The notes beneath the pieces were generated by a model. That model did no database searches and was not told the DNA's origin. It saw only the letters and a program-made list of their open reading frames with translations. Below, piece after piece: positions 21,063-29,804 of a stretch of DNA of 64,000 nucleotides (positions are counted from its first letter, which is position 1; the number at the start of each line of letters is the position of its first letter). Source of the stretch: Streptomyces sp. NBC_00286 (GTDB lineage Bacteria; Actinomycetota; Actinomycetes; Streptomycetales; Streptomycetaceae); contig NZ_CP108054.1 in NCBI RefSeq assembly GCF_036173125.1, forward strand, positions 186,001 to 250,000, given 5' to 3'. The position numbers and the translations under genes were made by a program.

Positions 21063-21200
21063 TTGACTTCCTCCCCCGCGTGAACGAGGGGGATTCCTAC
21101 GGCTCGCGCCGTGGGGTTTTCTGCTTCACCGCCGACTGCCCGCCCGGAGTTCTCCGTTGAGGTCTTACACCGGCTCCACAGACAGACACCGCCAGCCCGG
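21063..21200 (-). ncRNA. Predicted omega (right-end) guide RNA of the TnpB element
   Basis: TnpB proteins are guided by an RNA made from the 3' end of tnpB and the right end of the element, with the guide lying just outside. Here the transcript would include the last part of tnpB and the hairpin at 21073-21092, ending in AGGAAGTCAA. The guide would read from about 21062 downward on the minus strand (AAGAACTTCTCACAAGACCT). The 5' limit is arbitrary. This is inferred from the known family mechanism. Confidence 0.45.
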
Positions 21201-22293
21201 CGGCCAGAAGGTTCTCAGCGGCGTTCACGTCCCGGTCATGGGCCGTGCCGCAACTGCCGCACGTCCAGGAACGGACATGCAGCGGCATCGCCTCAGAAAG
21301 GCTGCCGCAGGCGGAGCACAGCTTGGAGGAAGGAAAGAAGCGGTCCACCGCGATTACTTCCCGCCCGTACCAGTCGGCCTTGTACTCCAGCATGCTCCGG
21401 AACTGGGACCACGCGGCATCACTGATGGCGCGGGCCAGGCTCCGGTTTTTGACCATGTTGCGTACGGTCAGGTCCTCGATCACAAGCGTTTGGTTCTCAC
21501 GCACGAGTCGAGTGGTCAGCTTGTGCAGCACATCCCGCCTGCGGTCGGCGATCCGGGCATGGATCTTGGCGACCTTCTGGCGGGCCTTTTGCCGGTTGGC
21601 ACCCTCGCCCTTGGCCTTGCGGGACAGCTCCCGCTGGGCCTTCGCCAGTCGCTCGCGGTCGCGGCGCTCATGCCGCGGGTTGGCGATCTTCTCCCCCGTG
21701 GAGAGGGTCAGCAGGTGGTTAAGCCCGACGTCGATACCCACTGCCGCGTCGACCGCCGCGAGCGGCTTGACCCGCGGGTCCTCGCACAGCAGGGAGACGA
21801 ACCAGCGTCCGGCGCTGTCCCGGCTCACCGTCACCGTGCTCGGCGTCGCCCCCTCGGGCAGGGGACGCGACCAGACGATGTCCAGCGGGTCGGCCATCTT
21901 GGCCAGTGTCAGCTGGCCGTCGCGGAACCGGAAGGCGGAGGAGGTGTACTCCGCGCTCGCCCGGGAGGTCTTCTTCGCCTTGAAGCGCGGGTACTTGGCG
22001 CGTTTGGCGAAGAAGTTCGCGAAGGCGGCCTGCAGGTGCCGCAAGGCCTGCTGCAGCGGCACGGAGGAGACCTCGTTGAGGTAGGCGAGTTCCTCTGTCT
22101 TCTTCCACGCGGTCAGCAGGGCCGAGGTCTGGTTGTAGTTGACCCGTTCCTGCCGCGCCCAGGCCTCGGTACGGGCCGCGAGGGCCATGTTGTAGACCTT
22201 GCGCACGCATCCGAAGGTGCGCGACAGCTCGGCTGCCTGCGCATCGGTCGGATAGAAACGGTACTTGAAGGCCCGCTTCACGCCAGTGGCCAT
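21097..22293 (-). CDS. tnpB: TnpB RNA-guided endonuclease (IS605 OrfB)
   Basis: Protein of 398 aa with an intact RuvC-like nuclease. Catalytic acids fit Asp188 (VGIDVGLNHL), Glu273 (LVIEDLTVRNM) and Asp355 (HDRDVNAAEN). The zinc finger Cys set is C326/C329 (CSACG) and C345/C348 (CGSCG). The N-terminal OrfB helix-turn-helix region (KYRFYPTDAQAAELSRTFGC) is complete. Because all catalytic residues remain, the protein is probably active in guide-directed cleavage, which helps the element persist. ATG start at 22293, with GGTGAG upstream located next to a stem-loop. It lies alone, without tnpA. Confidence 0.95.
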   Translation of the reverse strand: MATGVKRAFKYRFYPTDAQAAELSRTFGCVRKVYNMALAARTEAWARQERVNYNQTSALLTAWKKTEELAYLNEVSSVPLQQALRHLQAAFANFFAKRAKYPRFKAKKTSRASAEYTSSAFRFRDGQLTLAKMADPLDIVWSRPLPEGATPSTVTVSRDSAGRWFVSLLCEDPRVKPLAAVDAAVGIDVGLNHLLTLSTGEKIANPRHERRDRERLAKAQRELSRKAKGEGANRQKARQKVAKIHARIADRRRDVLHKLTTRLVRENQTLVIEDLTVRNMVKNRSLARAISDAAWSQFRSMLEYKADWYGREVIAVDRFFPSSKLCSACGSLSEAMPLHVRSWTCGSCGTAHDRDVNAAENLLAAGLAVSVCGAGVRPQRRTPGGQSAVKQKTPRREP

Positions 22294-23337: not shown

Positions 23338-25782
23338 ATGGCACAGGGCACGGTCCAGGTGACGCACACCGGCACGTCTCGGTGGCGACGCCGCACGGGT
23401 GAGTACGCATCGCTCGCCGCCGCCCTGGAGGCCGCGGGCGACGGTGATGTGCTCACCGTCGCGCCCGGTACGTACAGGGAAAACCTCGTCGTCCGGCGGA
23501 CGGTGACCCTGCGGGGCCCGGAGGGCTCCCCCGGTTCCGTACGCATCGCGCCCGTTGACGGTGTGCCGCTCACGGTGCGCGCGTCCGCGGTAGTCCAGGA
23601 CCTGCTCGTGGAGGGCCAGGACGCGGCGGCGCCCGCGCTGCTCGTCGAGGAGGGCGCTCCGGAGCTCACGGACATCCGGATCGTCACGCGTTCCGCCGCC
23701 GGGATCGAGGTGCGCGGCGGTGCGCGTCCGACCGTGCGGCGCTGCACGGTCGACAATCCGGCGGGTGTCGGTATCGCCGTACTGGACGGCGGGGGCGGGG
23801 TGTTCGAGGACTGCGAGGTCGTGGCCGCAGGCCAGTCGGGCATCGCCGTGCGCGGCGCCGCCCATCCACGCCTTGAGCGCTGCCGGGTGCATCACGCGTC
23901 GGGCGCGGGCCTGTCGGCGACCGGTGAGCATTCCGCGCTGGAGGCTGTGGGCTGCGAGGTGTATGAGGTCAAGGGCAGCGGCGTCCAGGTCACCGCGCGG
24001 GCGACGGCGCATCTCACCGACTGCGTCGTGCACCGGACCACGGCGGACGGTGTCACGCTCGACACGGACGCCGTGCTCACGCTCGCCGACTGCCGGATCC
24101 ACGACATCCCGGAGAACGCGGTCGATCTGCGTTCCCGCTCGGTCCTGACGATGACCCGTTCCACGGTGCGGCAGTTCGGGCGCAACGGCCTTTCGGTGTG
24201 GGATCCCGGCACACGGGTGGACGCCGACCAGTGCGAGATCCATGACAGTACGGGCGACTATCCCGCGGTCTGGGTGAGCGACGGCGCGACCGTGGTGCTC
24301 GACTCGTGCCGGGTGCACGACGTGCCGGACGCCCTCTTCGTGCTCGACCGCGGCTCGCGCGCCGATGTCGTCGACAGCGATCTGTGGCAGGTGCGCAACA
24401 CGGCGGTGTCGGTGAGCGACGGAGCCACCGCACAGCTCGACGACTGCCGTATCCGGGACGCCGCGACCGGCGCCTGGTTCCGCGATCACGGCAGCGGCGG
24501 CACGCTCTCGGGGTGCACCATCGACGGTGCGCAGACGGGTGTGATCGTGACCAAGGGCGCCGACCCCACCGTCGAGCGCTGCACGGTCGACTCGCCCGCG
24601 GAGGCCGGTTTCTACGTCTCGGCCGGCGGCCGCGGCACGTTCCACGGCTGCCGCGTCACGGGCAGCGGAGGCTACGGCTTCCATGTGATCGACGGCTGCC
24701 GTACGACGCTCAGGAAGTGCCGTACGGAGCGCTGCGCGCGCGGGGGTTACGAGTTCGCCGACGCCGGCGGCGACCAAGGATCCGGCAACGGACCCGTCGT
24801 CGAGGAGTGCACGAGCGACGAGAGCGCCGGGGTACGGCCTCCGCCAGCTCAGACGGCCGTGGAGACGACGAGCCAGTCCCCCGGTCTGCTGGGCGCCATC
24901 CCAGGTCAGCGCACGACCGAGCAGGAGCCGCTGGTCACCGCGCAGCCGCCCGGGCAGCCCGAGCAGCCCGCACGCACGTCGAAGGCCGTGCTCGGTGAAC
25001 TCGACGCGCTGGTCGGCCTCGACAGCGTCAAGCGCGAGGTGCGGGCCCTCACCGACATGATCGAGGTGGGCCGCCGCCGTCAGCAGGCGGGCCTCAAGGC
25101 GGCCTCCGTGCGGCGCCATCTGGTCTTCACCGGCTCCCCCGGCACGGGCAAGACGACCGTCGCCCGGCTGTACGGCGAGATCCTGGCCTCGCTCGGTGTC
25201 CTGGAGAAGGGCCATCTCGTCGAGGTGTCCCGGGTCGATCTGGTCGGCGAGCACATCGGCTCCACGGCCATCCGTACGCAGGAGGCCTTCGACAAGGCGC
25301 GCGGAGGCGTGCTGTTCATCGACGAGGCGTACGCGCTGTCGCCGGAGGACTCGGGACGCGACTTCGGGCGCGAGGCCATCGACACCCTTGTGAAGCTGAT
25401 GGAGGACCACCGGGAGGCGGTGGTAGTGATCGTCGCGGGGTACACGGCCGAGATGGAGCGCTTCCTTCGCGTCAACCCCGGGGTGGCGTCCCGTTTCTCA
25501 CGGACCATCACATTCAGCGACTACGTTCCCGAGGAGCTGCTGCGGATCGTGGAACAGCAGGCTGAGGAGCACGAGTACCGGTTGGCGCCGGGCGCGGGCG
25601 AAGCGCTGCTGAAGTACTTCACGGCGATCCCGAAGGGGCCCGCGTTCGGCAACGGCCGCACCGCGCGGCAGACGTTCGAGGCGATGGTGGAGCGGCACGC
25701 GGGGCGGGTCGCCCAGCTCGCCGAGACGAGCACGGACGACCTCACCCTGCTTTACGCCGAGGACCTGCCCGAGTTGCCCTGA
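23338..25782 (+). CDS. Parallel beta-helix / CbxX-type AAA+ ATPase fusion
   Basis: Protein of 814 aa. Residues about 1-490 form a right-handed parallel beta-helix: many 22-24-residue coils such as ITRSAAGIEVRGGARPTVRR and TIDGAQTGVIVTKGADPTVE (PbH1-type, pectate-lyase-like fold). A Pro/Gln/Thr linker (about 500-540) follows. The C-terminal AAA+ module has Walker A GSPGTGKTT (near 600), Walker B GVLFIDEAYAL (near 660), a sensor region VVIVAGYTAEMERFL and the conserved FGNGRTARQTFE. The ATPase half resembles CbxX/CfxQ, SpoVK and the EccA ATPase of type VII secretion, with the helix replacing the EccA TPR domain. No signal peptide is visible, so it is cytoplasmic. The role is unknown; remodelling of a partner recognised by the beta-helix is plausible. 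Confidence 0.9.
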   Translation: MAQGTVQVTHTGTSRWRRRTGEYASLAAALEAAGDGDVLTVAPGTYRENLVVRRTVTLRGPEGSPGSVRIAPVDGVPLTVRASAVVQDLLVEGQDAAAPALLVEEGAPELTDIRIVTRSAAGIEVRGGARPTVRRCTVDNPAGVGIAVLDGGGGVFEDCEVVAAGQSGIAVRGAAHPRLERCRVHHASGAGLSATGEHSALEAVGCEVYEVKGSGVQVTARATAHLTDCVVHRTTADGVTLDTDAVLTLADCRIHDIPENAVDLRSRSVLTMTRSTVRQFGRNGLSVWDPGTRVDADQCEIHDSTGDYPAVWVSDGATVVLDSCRVHDVPDALFVLDRGSRADVVDSDLWQVRNTAVSVSDGATAQLDDCRIRDAATGAWFRDHGSGGTLSGCTIDGAQTGVIVTKGADPTVERCTVDSPAEAGFYVSAGGRGTFHGCRVTGSGGYGFHVIDGCRTTLRKCRTERCARGGYEFADAGGDQGSGNGPVVEECTSDESAGVRPPPAQTAVETTSQSPGLLGAIPGQRTTEQEPLVTAQPPGQPEQPARTSKAVLGELDALVGLDSVKREVRALTDMIEVGRRRQQAGLKAASVRRHLVFTGSPGTGKTTVARLYGEILASLGVLEKGHLVEVSRVDLVGEHIGSTAIRTQEAFDKARGGVLFIDEAYALSPEDSGRDFGREAIDTLVKLMEDHREAVVVIVAGYTAEMERFLRVNPGVASRFSRTITFSDYVPEELLRIVEQQAEEHEYRLAPGAGEALLKYFTAIPKGPAFGNGRTARQTFEAMVERHAGRVAQLAETSTDDLTLLYAEDLPELP

Positions 25783-25801
25783 GGCGCACCGTCCGCTCCT
25801 G

Positions 25802-26190
25802 GATCGGACTGAGCCTCACTGTCCGCGCCCCGACCGGGCTGCAGTTCGTCTTCAGCGCCCGGACCGGGCTACGGCTCGCCGTCCGCACCCGGCCCGGACT
25901 GAGGCTCACTGGCCGCGCCCCGACCGGGCTGCAGTTCGTCTTCAGCGCCCGGACCGGGCTACGGCTCGCCGTCCGCACCCGGCCCGGACTGAGGCTCACT
26001 GGCCGCGCCCCGACCGGGCTGCAGTTCGTCTTCAGCGCCCGGACCGGGCTACGGCTCGCCGTCCGCACCCGGCCCGGACTGAGGCTCACTGGCCGCGCCC
26101 CGACCGGGCTGCAGTTCGTCTTCAGCGCCCGGACCGGGCTACGGCTCGCCGTCCGCACCCGGGCCGGACTGAGGCTCACTGGCCGCGCCC
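25802..26190. repeat. 90-bp tandem repeat array with in-frame amber codons
   Basis: About four copies of a 90-bp unit are visible, each made of three 30-bp subunits. Read on the minus strand in the frame of the upstream gene, each unit encodes PGPGAEDELQ, PGRGAASEPQ and SGPGADGEP then TAG: the first two decapeptides end in CAG, the third in TAG. TAG codons fall at 26139-26141, 26049-26051, 25959-25961 and 25869-25871, exactly 90 bases apart. The leftmost, diverged copy keeps CAG at the corresponding place. The array is thus an amplified piece of the coding end of the membrane lipase gene, most of it now beyond that gene's stop. Confidence 0.92.
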
Positions 26191-28676
26191 GGACCGGGCT
26201 GAGGCGCAACGTCCGCACCCGAAGCGGGTGACTGCCCGCCTTGTGGGCGCGGACCGGACTGCGGCTCGCCGTCAGGTGGCGTGTCCGGATCAGGCTCACT
26301 AGGTCCTGGGGACCCGCCTTCCGGGCGCGGGCCCGGCACATCCGGCCTGAGTCGTGTGAGCAGTCGCTGCCGTTCCTCGGCGAATGCGGGGTCGGCCTGG
26401 TAGTCGGAGTGGCCGAGGATCGGTGCGGGCAGCGGGTGTTCGGCGGTGCGGCCGTATGCGAGGGGGTCCTTGAGTGGCTCGCGGTCGACTTTCGGGCCGC
26501 AGTCGCCGGGGAGCCGGACGGGGCCGCCGATGGGGTCGGTGGCCCGGTGGAGGTTGCGCCAGCAGTCGATCTCGCGGTGCAGGCCGCTGAGCGCGTCGGG
26601 ACCGAAGTGGGCCGGGAACCAGCGCCCGTAGAGCCGCTCCAGGGGTGAGCCGTAGGTCAGCAGCGCGACGCGCTTGCGGACCGACGGGGTGAGCTGCCAG
26701 GCCGCGGCGGCGGCGAGAACGCTGCCCTGGGAGTGCCCGGAGATGACGAGCCGTCCGCCCGTGGTGCGTGTCCAGGTGGCCATGCGCCAGGTCAGGTCGG
26801 GCACGGCGCGCTCGGCGTAGCAGGGGGGCGCGAAGGGATGTGCCGCGCGCGGCCAGAACGTACCGACGTCCCACAAGATGCCGATGGTGCGCCGTGCGGA
26901 GGGATCTTTGTAGGCGCGGCGGCCCCAGGTGACGAACAGTATGAAGCCGACGCCGATCAGCCAGGAGCCGAGCGCCTGCGCGGTCTCGGCTGCGCCCTCC
27001 ACGAAGGGGTGCGTGTCCTGCGCCGCCTTGCCCGGCACTTCGTCGGACGCTATGGCGCCCACCAGGGCCACGATGCCCAGCAGGAGCGTCACCACGGAGG
27101 TGATGCCGATGATGCGGGGAGCCCGGTCGGTGAGCGAGGCCATTGCGCGGGTGCGTGCGATGCGCCGGGTGCGCTCGGTGTCCTTGGGTTCGGCGGGGTA
27201 GTCCTGTTCCACCTCGCTCATCGCGGCGCGGCGCAGTTGCACCGTGCGCCGGGCCAGCCAGGCGAAGAGCAGCAGGAGGACGACGAGGAGGGGCGGGATG
27301 ACGGACGCCTGCCAGGTCAGGAACACCGGCGGGCCCTTGATCGAGCCGCCGGTGCCGTCCAGCCAGTCGGCGACGCGCTGGGCCACGCCGCCGGAGAACA
27401 CGCCGCCGAGCGCGCAGGCCAGCATGGCGACGGCGGGACCGGCCAGTCCGCGCATCGCGGTGCGGGCGTCGGGGTGGGAGCGGTAGAGGAGGTGGGCGAC
27501 CACGCCGATCGCGATCACGAGGAGGCCCTGGACGAGGACGATGCCGCCGAAGGTCGCGTCGCCCGGCAGCCGGTGGACCGAGCGCCACTCCGGACGCGAC
27601 CAGCCCGCGTAGACGACGGTGAGGGCGAGCAGGACCAGCGAGCCGATGGGCAGCCAGCGCACCAGGGCCTCGTCGAGTTGCCGGTCCAGACGGCGCTCGC
27701 TGCGGCCCCTGCGGCACACGACCCACACCACGACGAGCGCGCCCACCACGAGCGCCCCGTTCAGGAGCCAGCCCAGCACTTCCAGGACGACCGGCCCGCC
27801 GTCTCCGCGGTCGTGGCGGGCGGCGGAGGTGCCGACGCCGGCGGTGACCGTCAGCAGGCCCGCGGCAGTGTGGGCGGCGCGCAGCCGGGCCACCAGGCGG
27901 CGCCCGTACCAGAAGCCGGGGCGGCCCAGGCCCAGGCGGCTGGTGTCCTCGTCCAGGTCGGCCCCGTCGGTCATCGGCTGCTGGGACTCGTACGCACTCC
28001 AGGTGCGGTGGGAGAGGTACCACAACAGGCCGGTGAGGGCGGCCGGCACCAGGGCGGCCAGGGCGAGGCGGCGGCCCGGCTGACTCCACCAGCCGTCATC
28101 GGACTCGACGGGCGCCATGAAGCCCAGCCAGGAGTGGTCCGCCGCGCATGCGCGCGAGCCCGCGCACTGCCAGGCGGCCAGGTCCAGGGCCACCTCGCAG
28201 GCGGCGGCGACCAGCAGCACCGTGAGGGTCAGGCTCACCAGCCGGACGAGCAGGCCGTAGAGGCGTACTGTCCTGGTCCGGTTGTCGCTCACCGTGGGCC
28301 GCATCCAGTGGGCGAGATTGACCACCATGAACGGCAGGAGCAGCAGCCACAGGGCGCGGGCGCCGTTGCCGGAGGTGAGGTTGCACCATACGTACGCCTC
28401 GGGAACCGGCTTGCCGCGGTAGTCGTCGGGCCGCTGCTCCGCGTCGGCGTCGTCGATACGGCGGAAGACGGCGGCCGTCTCGTCGCCGGTGATCCGCACG
28501 GTGCGCGGATCGTTCAGCATCTCCTCGGGCGTGGTGCCGCCCACGCCGTGGACCAGGAGTTCAAGTGCGGTGTCGGCCGTTTCGGGCCGCCGCTCGGAGC
28601 TGGTCGCCTGCCCCGCCGAGGCACGTTCCTGTGAACGCTCCACTGTCCCTGCTTCCCCCGTACTGCCTGGTGACAT
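26139..28676 (-). CDS. Large membrane protein with C-terminal lipase/esterase-like hydrolase domain
   Basis: Protein of 845 aa. After a charged tail and an early ELLVHGVGGTTPEEML motif (an oxyanion-type His-Gly segment of alpha/beta hydrolases) come about ten membrane segments (residues about 110-590). A cytoplasmic hydrolase part follows, with LVISGHSQGSVLAAAAAWQL (nucleophile elbow GxSxG, Ser near 660), LLTYGSPLERLYGRW and a late PILGHSDYQ. The hydrolase is therefore split around the membrane region. The C-terminus is Pro/Gly/Gln-rich decapeptides running into the repeat array, where a TAG replaces CAG. The start at 28676 has no clear ribosome site; a GTG at 28643 after AGCAGGGA is an alternative. 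The substrate is unknown. Confidence 0.82.
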   Translation of the reverse strand: MSPGSTGEAGTVERSQERASAGQATSSERRPETADTALELLVHGVGGTTPEEMLNDPRTVRITGDETAAVFRRIDDADAEQRPDDYRGKPVPEAYVWCNLTSGNGARALWLLLLPFMVVNLAHWMRPTVSDNRTRTVRLYGLLVRLVSLTLTVLLVAAACEVALDLAAWQCAGSRACAADHSWLGFMAPVESDDGWWSQPGRRLALAALVPAALTGLLWYLSHRTWSAYESQQPMTDGADLDEDTSRLGLGRPGFWYGRRLVARLRAAHTAAGLLTVTAGVGTSAARHDRGDGGPVVLEVLGWLLNGALVVGALVVVWVVCRRGRSERRLDRQLDEALVRWLPIGSLVLLALTVVYAGWSRPEWRSVHRLPGDATFGGIVLVQGLLVIAIGVVAHLLYRSHPDARTAMRGLAGPAVAMLACALGGVFSGGVAQRVADWLDGTGGSIKGPPVFLTWQASVIPPLLVVLLLLFAWLARRTVQLRRAAMSEVEQDYPAEPKDTERTRRIARTRAMASLTDRAPRIIGITSVVTLLLGIVALVGAIASDEVPGKAAQDTHPFVEGAAETAQALGSWLIGVGFILFVTWGRRAYKDPSARRTIGILWDVGTFWPRAAHPFAPPCYAERAVPDLTWRMATWTRTTGGRLVISGHSQGSVLAAAAAWQLTPSVRKRVALLTYGSPLERLYGRWFPAHFGPDALSGLHREIDCWRNLHRATDPIGGPVRLPGDCGPKVDREPLKDPLAYGRTAEHPLPAPILGHSDYQADPAFAEERQRLLTRLRPDVPGPRPEGGSPGPSEPDPDTPPDGEPQSGPRPQGGQSPASGADVAPQPGPGAASEPQSGPGADGEP

Positions 28677-28875
28677 GTGTCATGCGCAGGTACAAGAATC
28701 CCGGCTACGCGGCCGGTGCGCACCCCTGGTCACCGAATCTCCCCGATCCGTGTGACGGTGACGGCCCCGCGTTGCCCGCGTGACGTGTGCGCATGAGCAC
28801 AGGCAGTGGCGCAAGGGGTGGGCACCCGTGCGAGTATGGGACGCCCTTGGGGTCCCGGACGGGAAGAATCTCCTC

Positions 28876-28927
28876 GTCGGAGGGGGTCGGAGGGGGTCGG
28901 AGGGGTCGAAGACGGGTCGGAGGGGGT
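28876..28927 (+). repeat. Short GTCGGAGGGG tandem repeat in the DeoR leader
   Basis: Units of GTCGGAGGGG or close variants occur about four times just before the DeoR-type gene. The G-runs could form a G-quadruplex on the coding strand or reflect slippage. No gene is present here. Confidence 0.6.
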
Positions 28928-28973
28928 TCGAGACAGTGTCGGGCGAATACGAGGCGAAGGGACCGGAGCGGAC

Positions 28974-29804
28974 GTGAGCGAGAATCAGAACCTCCTCGCG
29001 GAGCAGCGCCGCGCTCTGATCCTCGACGAGGTCCGGCGGCGCGGCGGCGTCCGCGTCAACGAGCTCACCAGAAAGCTCGGCGTCTCCGATATGACGGTCC
29101 GCCGCGATCTGGACGCGCTGTCCCGGCAGGGCGTGGTGGAAAAGGTGCACGGCGGCGCGGTCCCGATCGTCGAGGCCAGCACCCATGAGCCGGGCTTCGA
29201 AGCCAAGTCGGGACTGGAGCTGACCGCCAAGGAGGACATCGCGCGGGCCGCCGCGAGCCTGGTCGCGCCGGGCACGGCGATCGCGCTGTCCGGCGGCACG
29301 ACGACGTACGCGCTCGCCCATCAGCTCCTCGATGTGCCGGACCTGACCGTGGTGACCAACTCGGTGCGCGTGGCCGATGTCTTCCATGCCGCGCAGCGCA
29401 CTTCCGGGCAGCGGCAGGGTGCGGCCACGGTCGTACTGACGGGTGGTGTGCGTACGCCTTCGGACTCGCTCGTGGGACCGGTCGCCGACCAGGCGATCGG
29501 GGCGCTGCACTTCGATGTGCTGTTCCTCGGGGTGCACGGCATCTCGGTCGAGGCGGGCCTGTCGACGCCGAACCTGGCGGAGGCCGAGACGAACCGGCGG
29601 CTCGTGCAGTCCGCGCGGCGCGTCGTCGTGGTCGCGGACCACACCAAGTGGGGCACGGTGGGGCTGAGTTCGTTCGCCGCGCTGGAGCAGGTCGACACGC
29701 TGGTCACGGACGCCGGGCTGCCCGCCGAGGCACGCGCGGAGGTCTCCGAGCATTTGCGGCGTCTGGTGGTGGCGGGCGAGCCCGAGGAGGATACAGACAT
29801 CTGA
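28974..29804 (+). CDS. DeoR/GlpR family transcriptional regulator
   Basis: Protein of 276 aa. The N-terminal winged helix reads LAEQRRALILDEVRRRGGVR then NELTRKLGVSDMTVRRDLDAL, followed by EKVHGGAV, the family junction. The C-terminal DeoRC sugar-phosphate sensor has IALSGGTTTYALAHQL, VVTNSVRVADVF, GVHGISVEAGLSTPNLAEAE and VVVVADHTKWGTVGL. Members repress sugar or polyol genes and are relieved by a phosphorylated sugar. The GTG at 28974 has a GGAG site six bases upstream; the longer frame passes through the short tandem repeat. No sugar operon is adjacent, so its targets lie elsewhere or include itself. Confidence 0.92.
   Translation: MSENQNLLAEQRRALILDEVRRRGGVRVNELTRKLGVSDMTVRRDLDALSRQGVVEKVHGGAVPIVEASTHEPGFEAKSGLELTAKEDIARAAASLVAPGTAIALSGGTTTYALAHQLLDVPDLTVVTNSVRVADVFHAAQRTSGQRQGAATVVLTGGVRTPSDSLVGPVADQAIGALHFDVLFLGVHGISVEAGLSTPNLAEAETNRRLVQSARRVVVVADHTKWGTVGLSSFAALEQVDTLVTDAGLPAEARAEVSEHLRRLVVAGEPEEDTDI

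Follow-up and report, generated by a model that had tools for sequence, protein, structure and literature searches.

Gain of a stop codon, later amplified with the repeat that bears it, probably ended the overlap of two convergent genes in a Streptomyces strain

Introduction

Bacterial coding minisatellites are intragenic tandem repeats (VNTRs), and higher-order repeats, in which three monomers are amplified as one block, are known from satellite DNA. For convergent genes it is established that stops move and thereby create and abolish overlaps; in the stop-codon-movement model of PMC2174442 and PMC4161906, a gene that loses its stop is lengthened as far as the following stop of its frame, which lies within the convergent neighbor, and a new upstream stop alone is enough to end such an overlap. 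Among the literature matches listed, none dealt, by its title or the start of its abstract, with the hydrolase-AAA+ locus described here or with a comparable stop-bearing tandem array.

We analyzed a stretch of 64,000 nucleotides from Streptomyces sp. NBC_00286, referred to as the window, which comprises bases 186001-250000 of one 9.85-Mb contig in a genome that is 99.98% complete. Within it a membrane hydrolase gene converges on an AAA+ gene, and the hydrolase gene ends in a tandem array whose units repeat the stop codon of the gene. The array locus is a case of ordinary gene-end evolution of a known kind. Its value is as a clean example of convergent bacterial genes ceasing to overlap, in which the former and the present stop, the product of the crossover and the young repeat copies are all still legible at a single locus.

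Results

The membrane hydrolase CDS in its present form is positioned on the minus strand at 26139-28676 (845 aa, frame start at 28676). Searches of Pfam (E up to 0.001), of NCBIfam (E up to 0.01) and of the PDB sequences (E up to 0.1) gave no match to the protein, and they assigned it to no protein family. Some of its relatives carry the source names 'lipase family protein' or 'integral membrane protein' and many are named 'hypothetical protein'; the GHSQGS stretch of the protein resembles a hydrolase nucleophile elbow. The facing gene, on the plus strand at 23338-25782, encodes a protein of 814 aa composed of a right-handed beta-helix and an AAA ATPase with an AAA lid (PF13229, PF00004 and PF17866), the beta-helix half being joined to an AAA half similar to SpoVK, EccA and CbbX at scores under the NCBIfam cut-offs. 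A TnpB/OrfB-type gene (21097-22293; PF01385, PF07282 and PF12323) lies about 1 kb upstream of the AAA+ gene start. The hydrolase-AAA+ gap is now 356 bp and is occupied by the array, which bears out the proposal of the initial annotation that the array separates the two convergent genes.

Tandem Repeats Finder placed the 90-bp array on the minus strand at 25789-26201 (4.6 copies, 97% matches, score 770) and also reported a 30-bp period at 25792-26268. The array is a higher-order repeat of three 30-bp units, which in the gene frame read PGPGAASEPQ or PGRGAASEPQ (A), SGPGADGEP followed by a stop (B) and PGPGAEDELQ (C), and which follow one another along the gene in the order A1 B1 C1 A2 B2 C2 A3 B3 C3 A4 B4 C4 A5 B5. 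The copies stand in tandem, head to tail, and are highly identical, as in a minisatellite or VNTR; the three C-A-B 90-mers between 26138 and 25869 show 0 differences in each pair. When the hydrolase frame was read onward, the four in-frame TAGs at exact 90-bp spacing that had been described earlier were confirmed on the minus strand. The first, at the end of unit B1 (26139-26141, codon 846), is the current hydrolase stop, and the others are found in units B2 (26049-26051, codon 876), B3 (25959-25961, codon 906) and B4 (25869-25871, codon 936). The earlier reading of a frame that is otherwise open for 129 further codons was equally correct, since codons 846 up to 975 lead to a minus-strand TAA at 25752-25754 (codon 975), in phase with the hydrolase and antisense to the Leu(CTT)-Tyr(TAC) codons of the AAA+ gene, which we call the backstop.

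From base composition alone 0.86 TAG is expected in 130 codons here, so a single in-frame TAG is unremarkable and requires no special cause; the second to fourth TAGs are copies of the first and not independent events. A 30-nt pattern spanning the stop (C or T at the changed base, at most 3 mismatches) was found at four places in the window's genome, all of them in the array, while its reversed control was found at none. A dispersed repeat was ruled out, the array being confined to one place in the genome, and so was a plasmid-borne repeat, no plasmid match being returned by a search that may omit near records. The copy number given here is that of one assembly. No long match to the array part was found in other genomes across overlapping draws of 41, 392, 395, 394 and 379, which represent part of the genus. 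In two draws the only strong match beyond the window's genome was G393, located on the same S. ureilyticus contig as the nearest relative of the hydrolase gene (L002, below) and spanning query positions 1-264 and extending to the first TAG; one draw also gave three matches confined to query positions 1-97, and in two further draws nothing but the window's genome matched. With a more permissive threshold, matches came from 13 of the 40 other genomes in the draw of 41, the longest match being about 90 bp and some matches of 26-55 bp falling within the array part, and these were taken as chance or tail matches.

A contig scan confirmed at least 560 relatives of the hydrolase gene, and the best 80 loci, all titled Streptomyces, were kept. 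In the nearest of these, L002 from S. ureilyticus (97% in the catalytic part), both the TAG and the 90-bp array are missing. The hydrolase frame there continues past a few decapeptides and closes at a TAA, so that it overlaps the facing AAA+ gene by exactly 31 nt (-31), and the L002 tail shows only weaker 30-, 36- and 60-bp periods by Tandem Repeats Finder. S. ureilyticus thus provides the orthologue with a longer frame and without ambers that had been named as a check on the locus. Both genes were placed in 77 of the 80 loci, with no AAA+ gene placed in the DNA examined for L050, L061 and L077, and among these 77 the hydrolase ends at -31 in 34, at -41 in 4 and apart from the AAA+ gene in 39; L024 and L066, whose AAA+ match is just 57-58% identical and perhaps a paralogue, are counted both in the 77 and in the 39. 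In a quick tree of the catalytic part, 27 of whose 78 inner branches are open, the window pairs with L002 (-31), and L005 (-31) lies next outside; because both neighbors overlap, the simplest reading is that separation is the derived state in the window. As expected of an overlap lost by stop gain, the nearest relatives retain the overlap and the longer frame, and downstream, at 25752-25754, the window keeps the old stop in phase. Hydrolase stops move often within the family, the quick tree requiring at least 16 changes between the overlapping and separated states over 78 scored rows.

The protein sequences extend this picture. Among the best 120 of 2086 homologous proteins, 54 of the 96 tails that could be placed by motif end like the overlap frame (GRSSA and similar), the 24 tails without the search motif being excluded from the count. 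The protein from Streptomyces sp. CA-288835 (P0001, 97% identical) ends ...PGPGAASEPQSSPGADGEP (...SSPGADGEP), at the same residue as the window; as this comparison is of protein sequence, a stop common to the two strains is read from protein length. Three proteins of 917-945 aa (P0061, P0063 and P0088) carry a similar extra hydrophobic C-terminal segment (AVLLLVS...AFLVAWAC) past the hydrolase, possibly a fusion with a neighbor.

The overlap stop is formed, in reverse complement, by the last part of a Leu codon together with the first part of the Tyr codon that follows it shortly before the AAA+ gene ends, such that CTC-TAY on the AAA+ strand gives the facing hydrolase a TAG and CTT-TAY gives it a TAA. 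In 42 of 77 loci the hydrolase strand has TAG or TAA at this site. Over the AAA regions of the relatives Leu is encoded by CTG in 65.5%, CTC in 31.4% and CTT in 1.6% of cases, and the window and L002 both have TAA at the backstop, that is, the rare CTT. Since the two share it, the most fitting reading of the TAA at 25752 is as a remnant of the former hydrolase end. With the window included, and with L024, L066 and L072 (gaps >900 bp) omitted, the AAA+ site offers the hydrolase a stop in 36 of the 42 in-phase pairs as against 7 of the 33 out-of-phase ones (Fisher p 1.9e-8). The association shrinks because relatedness among the loci counts: of 10 phylogenetically independent pairs about 3.9 are concordant and 0 discordant (median p 0.125, not significant). 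At 25748-25757 a synonymous choice of Leu codon in the AAA+ gene (CTC or CTT versus CTG) decides whether the facing gene has a stop there. The hydrolase-AAA+ family also lends itself to testing, in nature, whether a synonymous codon in one gene is held in place because the opposing gene needs a stop.

The individual units were compared with one another and with those of S. ureilyticus. The stop unit ends GACGGCGAGCCGTAG, and because GACGGCGAGCCGCAG occurs further upstream in the window's own tail, one C-to-T change is enough to make the stop. Compared with all L002 units, B1 and C1 show at least 8 and at least 9 differences of 30, respectively, and have no close counterpart, so the CAG form of the mutated unit B1 is not seen in L002. 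Units A5 and B5 (25779-25838 on the minus strand, with B5 at 25808-25779), in which CAG is kept, mark the old tail end by position and likely correspond to the last S. ureilyticus units. The leftmost CAG unit had earlier been regarded as a diverged copy of the stop unit, a view that the comparison contradicts: B5 differs from B1 at 8 of 30 positions and from the S. ureilyticus units Lu2 and Lu4 at 3 and 4, and being nearer to these it looks like a unit of the old tail. With unit Lu3 the differences number 3 for A5 and 2 for A1, and as A1 is thus the nearer of the two, A5 is assigned to the old tail mainly by position. Units A2, A3 and A4 are identical, agreeing with A5 at position 8 and with A1 at positions 17 and 25, and any cut between positions 8 and 16 of A5/A1 yields all three exactly. 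On these three informative positions, A2 is an exact mosaic of A5 and A1, as unequal crossover predicts, and the two parental units would lie 90 bp apart in an arrangement A1 B1 C A5 B5.

Between the window and L002, dN is 0.016 and dS 0.131 for the catalytic part (774 codons), versus 0.138 and 0.329 for the tail (71 codons, in which repeat units may be misaligned); the tail as aligned thus evolves faster than the catalytic part. Identical 90-mers set against a dS of 0.13 indicate that growth or homogenization of the array is much younger than the window-L002 split. Tandem arrays (period of at least 9) occur in the hydrolase-AAA+ junction in 9 of 74 loci, and the junction is repeat-prone: 18 of the 139 arrays found in these loci fall within it, while it accounts for 7133 of their 764289 bases, rows of overlapping period being counted apart. 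In S. albiflavescens (L006) an imperfect array whose periods are about 27 and 53 bp (L006:6366-6503) begins at that gene's own TGA and sits in a 147-nt gap, providing a looser parallel to the array in the window.

As RNA of the gene strand, the array folds better than its shuffles (z -4.2, 0 of 100 shuffles), and on the opposite strand its folding is ordinary (z -0.9). A perfect 13-nt hairpin, GCCCG-GTC-CGGGC (GCCCGGTCCGGGC), is positioned on the minus strand at 26127-26139, starting at the G of the first TAG, and recurs at 26037-26049, 25947-25959 and 25857-25869 as well as once in the upstream coding part (26187-26199). A scan of 25400-26600 for terminators of the hairpin plus T run type gave 0 sites, against 0.4 in shuffles, so the hairpin followed by a T run that defines a bidirectional intrinsic terminator was not found; no Rfam family reached its gathering score at 25000-29000. 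A known structured RNA or a T-run terminator in the array was set aside on these two scans.

The genome has 64 Rfam tRNA matches, and the cognate CTA-anticodon tRNA that stop recoding would use is not among them; anticodons were assigned by ARAGORN for 63 and by eye, from the sequence and the Rfam alignment, for one (G000:C1:5320445-5320516), whose anticodon loop holds UCC. The genome thus has no cognate amber suppressor among these matches, and readthrough by a suppressor tRNA was rejected. The match read by eye (L153:2646-2717, minus strand) is an atypical glycine-like tRNA with an unusual T arm, uncalled by ARAGORN and adjoining a tRNA-Gly(GCC), and the weakest match (G000:C1:6318618-6318715, tRNA-Gly by ARAGORN) was absent when stretch L161 was searched again.

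Discussion

The comparisons point, with good confidence, to a stop gain in the hydrolase gene that ended its overlap with the AAA+ gene, and to a later amplification of the stop-bearing block into a recent, probably neutral, untranslated minisatellite. We infer the following order of events. In the ancestor the hydrolase would have ended, after its decapeptide tail, antisense to the last codons of the AAA+ gene, with an overlap of 31 nt. One CAG of the tail would have become TAG in the lineage of this strain, shortening the hydrolase and leaving the remainder of the tail untranslated. An unequal exchange between A5 and A1, tail units 90 bp apart, would have duplicated the 90-bp block that holds the stop, and further rounds of exchange would have produced the present array, a recent and probably neutral non-coding minisatellite that spaces the genes by 356 bp. 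Gene conversion could also have spread the TAG after amplification. The initial annotation had proposed a single stop gain followed by amplification, and the open frame of L002, the mosaic units and the identical 90-mers support that history. Its suggestion of a truncated protein tail agrees with the longer, TAG-free frame of L002, and its description of the array as a repeat stretch 3' of the stop also stands.

The amber readthrough that it had offered as a further possibility found no such support. Under readthrough some ribosomes would pass the TAGs and produce a ladder of tails, each 30 residues longer than the last, up to the old TAA; the frame is open between the TAGs and on to that TAA, and UAG is known to be misread at a low level by glutamine tRNA. 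Ribosomes would, however, need to get past four stops in a row in a genome with 0 of 64 tRNA matches carrying a CTA anticodon, and the full tail is dispensable in the hydrolase family given that 39 of 77 loci end before the AAA+ gene, which leaves readthrough highly improbable. Coding in another frame, by way of the minus-strand ORF at 25742-26341 (199 aa) reached through a frameshift or from a start of its own, is barely credible: the ORF is open throughout in the window and also over the tail of L002, but its product is Arg/Ser-rich, and its length is no evidence because a stop-free 90-bp unit stays open at any copy number. An assembly error, in which copies were misassembled or a TAG arising as a sequencing error was multiplied, would account for the identity of three array copies, and assembly errors are known to arise at tandem repeats (PMC6868369). 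We consider it very unlikely, as the genome forms one 9.85-Mb contig (99.98% complete), the independent relative CA-288835 ends at the same residue, and the differences in the edge units form an exact mosaic, which is unexpected of random error.

The array might instead be a selected 3' untranslated spacer, with hairpins that stop or pause transcription, protect the end of the hydrolase mRNA and insulate it from the AAA+ transcript. The gene-strand fold (z -4.2) leaves room for a selected RNA role, though the opposite strand is ordinary and a repeat of palindromic units may fold well by its nature. Similarly, the mean 40-nt folding energy is -15.8 in the array, compared with -12.3 for the gene body and -13.1 for the tail of L002, yet the lowest 40-nt window in the array (-25.1) is no lower than that of the gene body (-25.8). 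Each TAG contributes its G as the first base of a 13-nt hairpin, but the presence of this hairpin in the upstream coding part indicates that it comes with the repeat unit. A second species, S. albiflavescens, has an imperfect array in an untranslated gap; against this, 38 of 77 loci overlap and hence have no spacer at all, and the array contains neither a terminator-like site nor an Rfam family. A selected spacer is on this evidence unlikely. Distinctly doubtful, too, is the proposal that the new stop freed a coding repeat to expand and that hairpins and in-frame fail-safe stops now insulate the formerly overlapping genes; if it were true, the array would serve as a transcript separator that is still evolving and whose length can be tuned. 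With no CTA tRNA, no terminator and no Rfam family found in these searches, and with a hairpin that comes with the unit, we therefore regard the array as non-coding and probably neutral, although it may have an insulating role.

Like the bacterial coding minisatellites, the array in the window has an in-frame 30-bp unit (10 codons), here within a 90-bp higher-order period, and it combines identical copies with a mosaic edge unit of the kind expected from unequal exchange; it differs from them in that the unit carries the gene's own stop and most of the array falls outside the protein. With the higher-order repeats of satellite DNA it shares diverged 30-bp monomers inside near-identical 90-bp blocks, whereas it is a tiny array at a bacterial gene end with no known function. 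The pattern of the hydrolase-AAA+ family fits both steps of the stop-codon-movement model (PMC2174442, PMC4161906), and to those steps the window adds the tandem amplification of a stop-bearing block, with the gap between the two genes widened to 356 bp.
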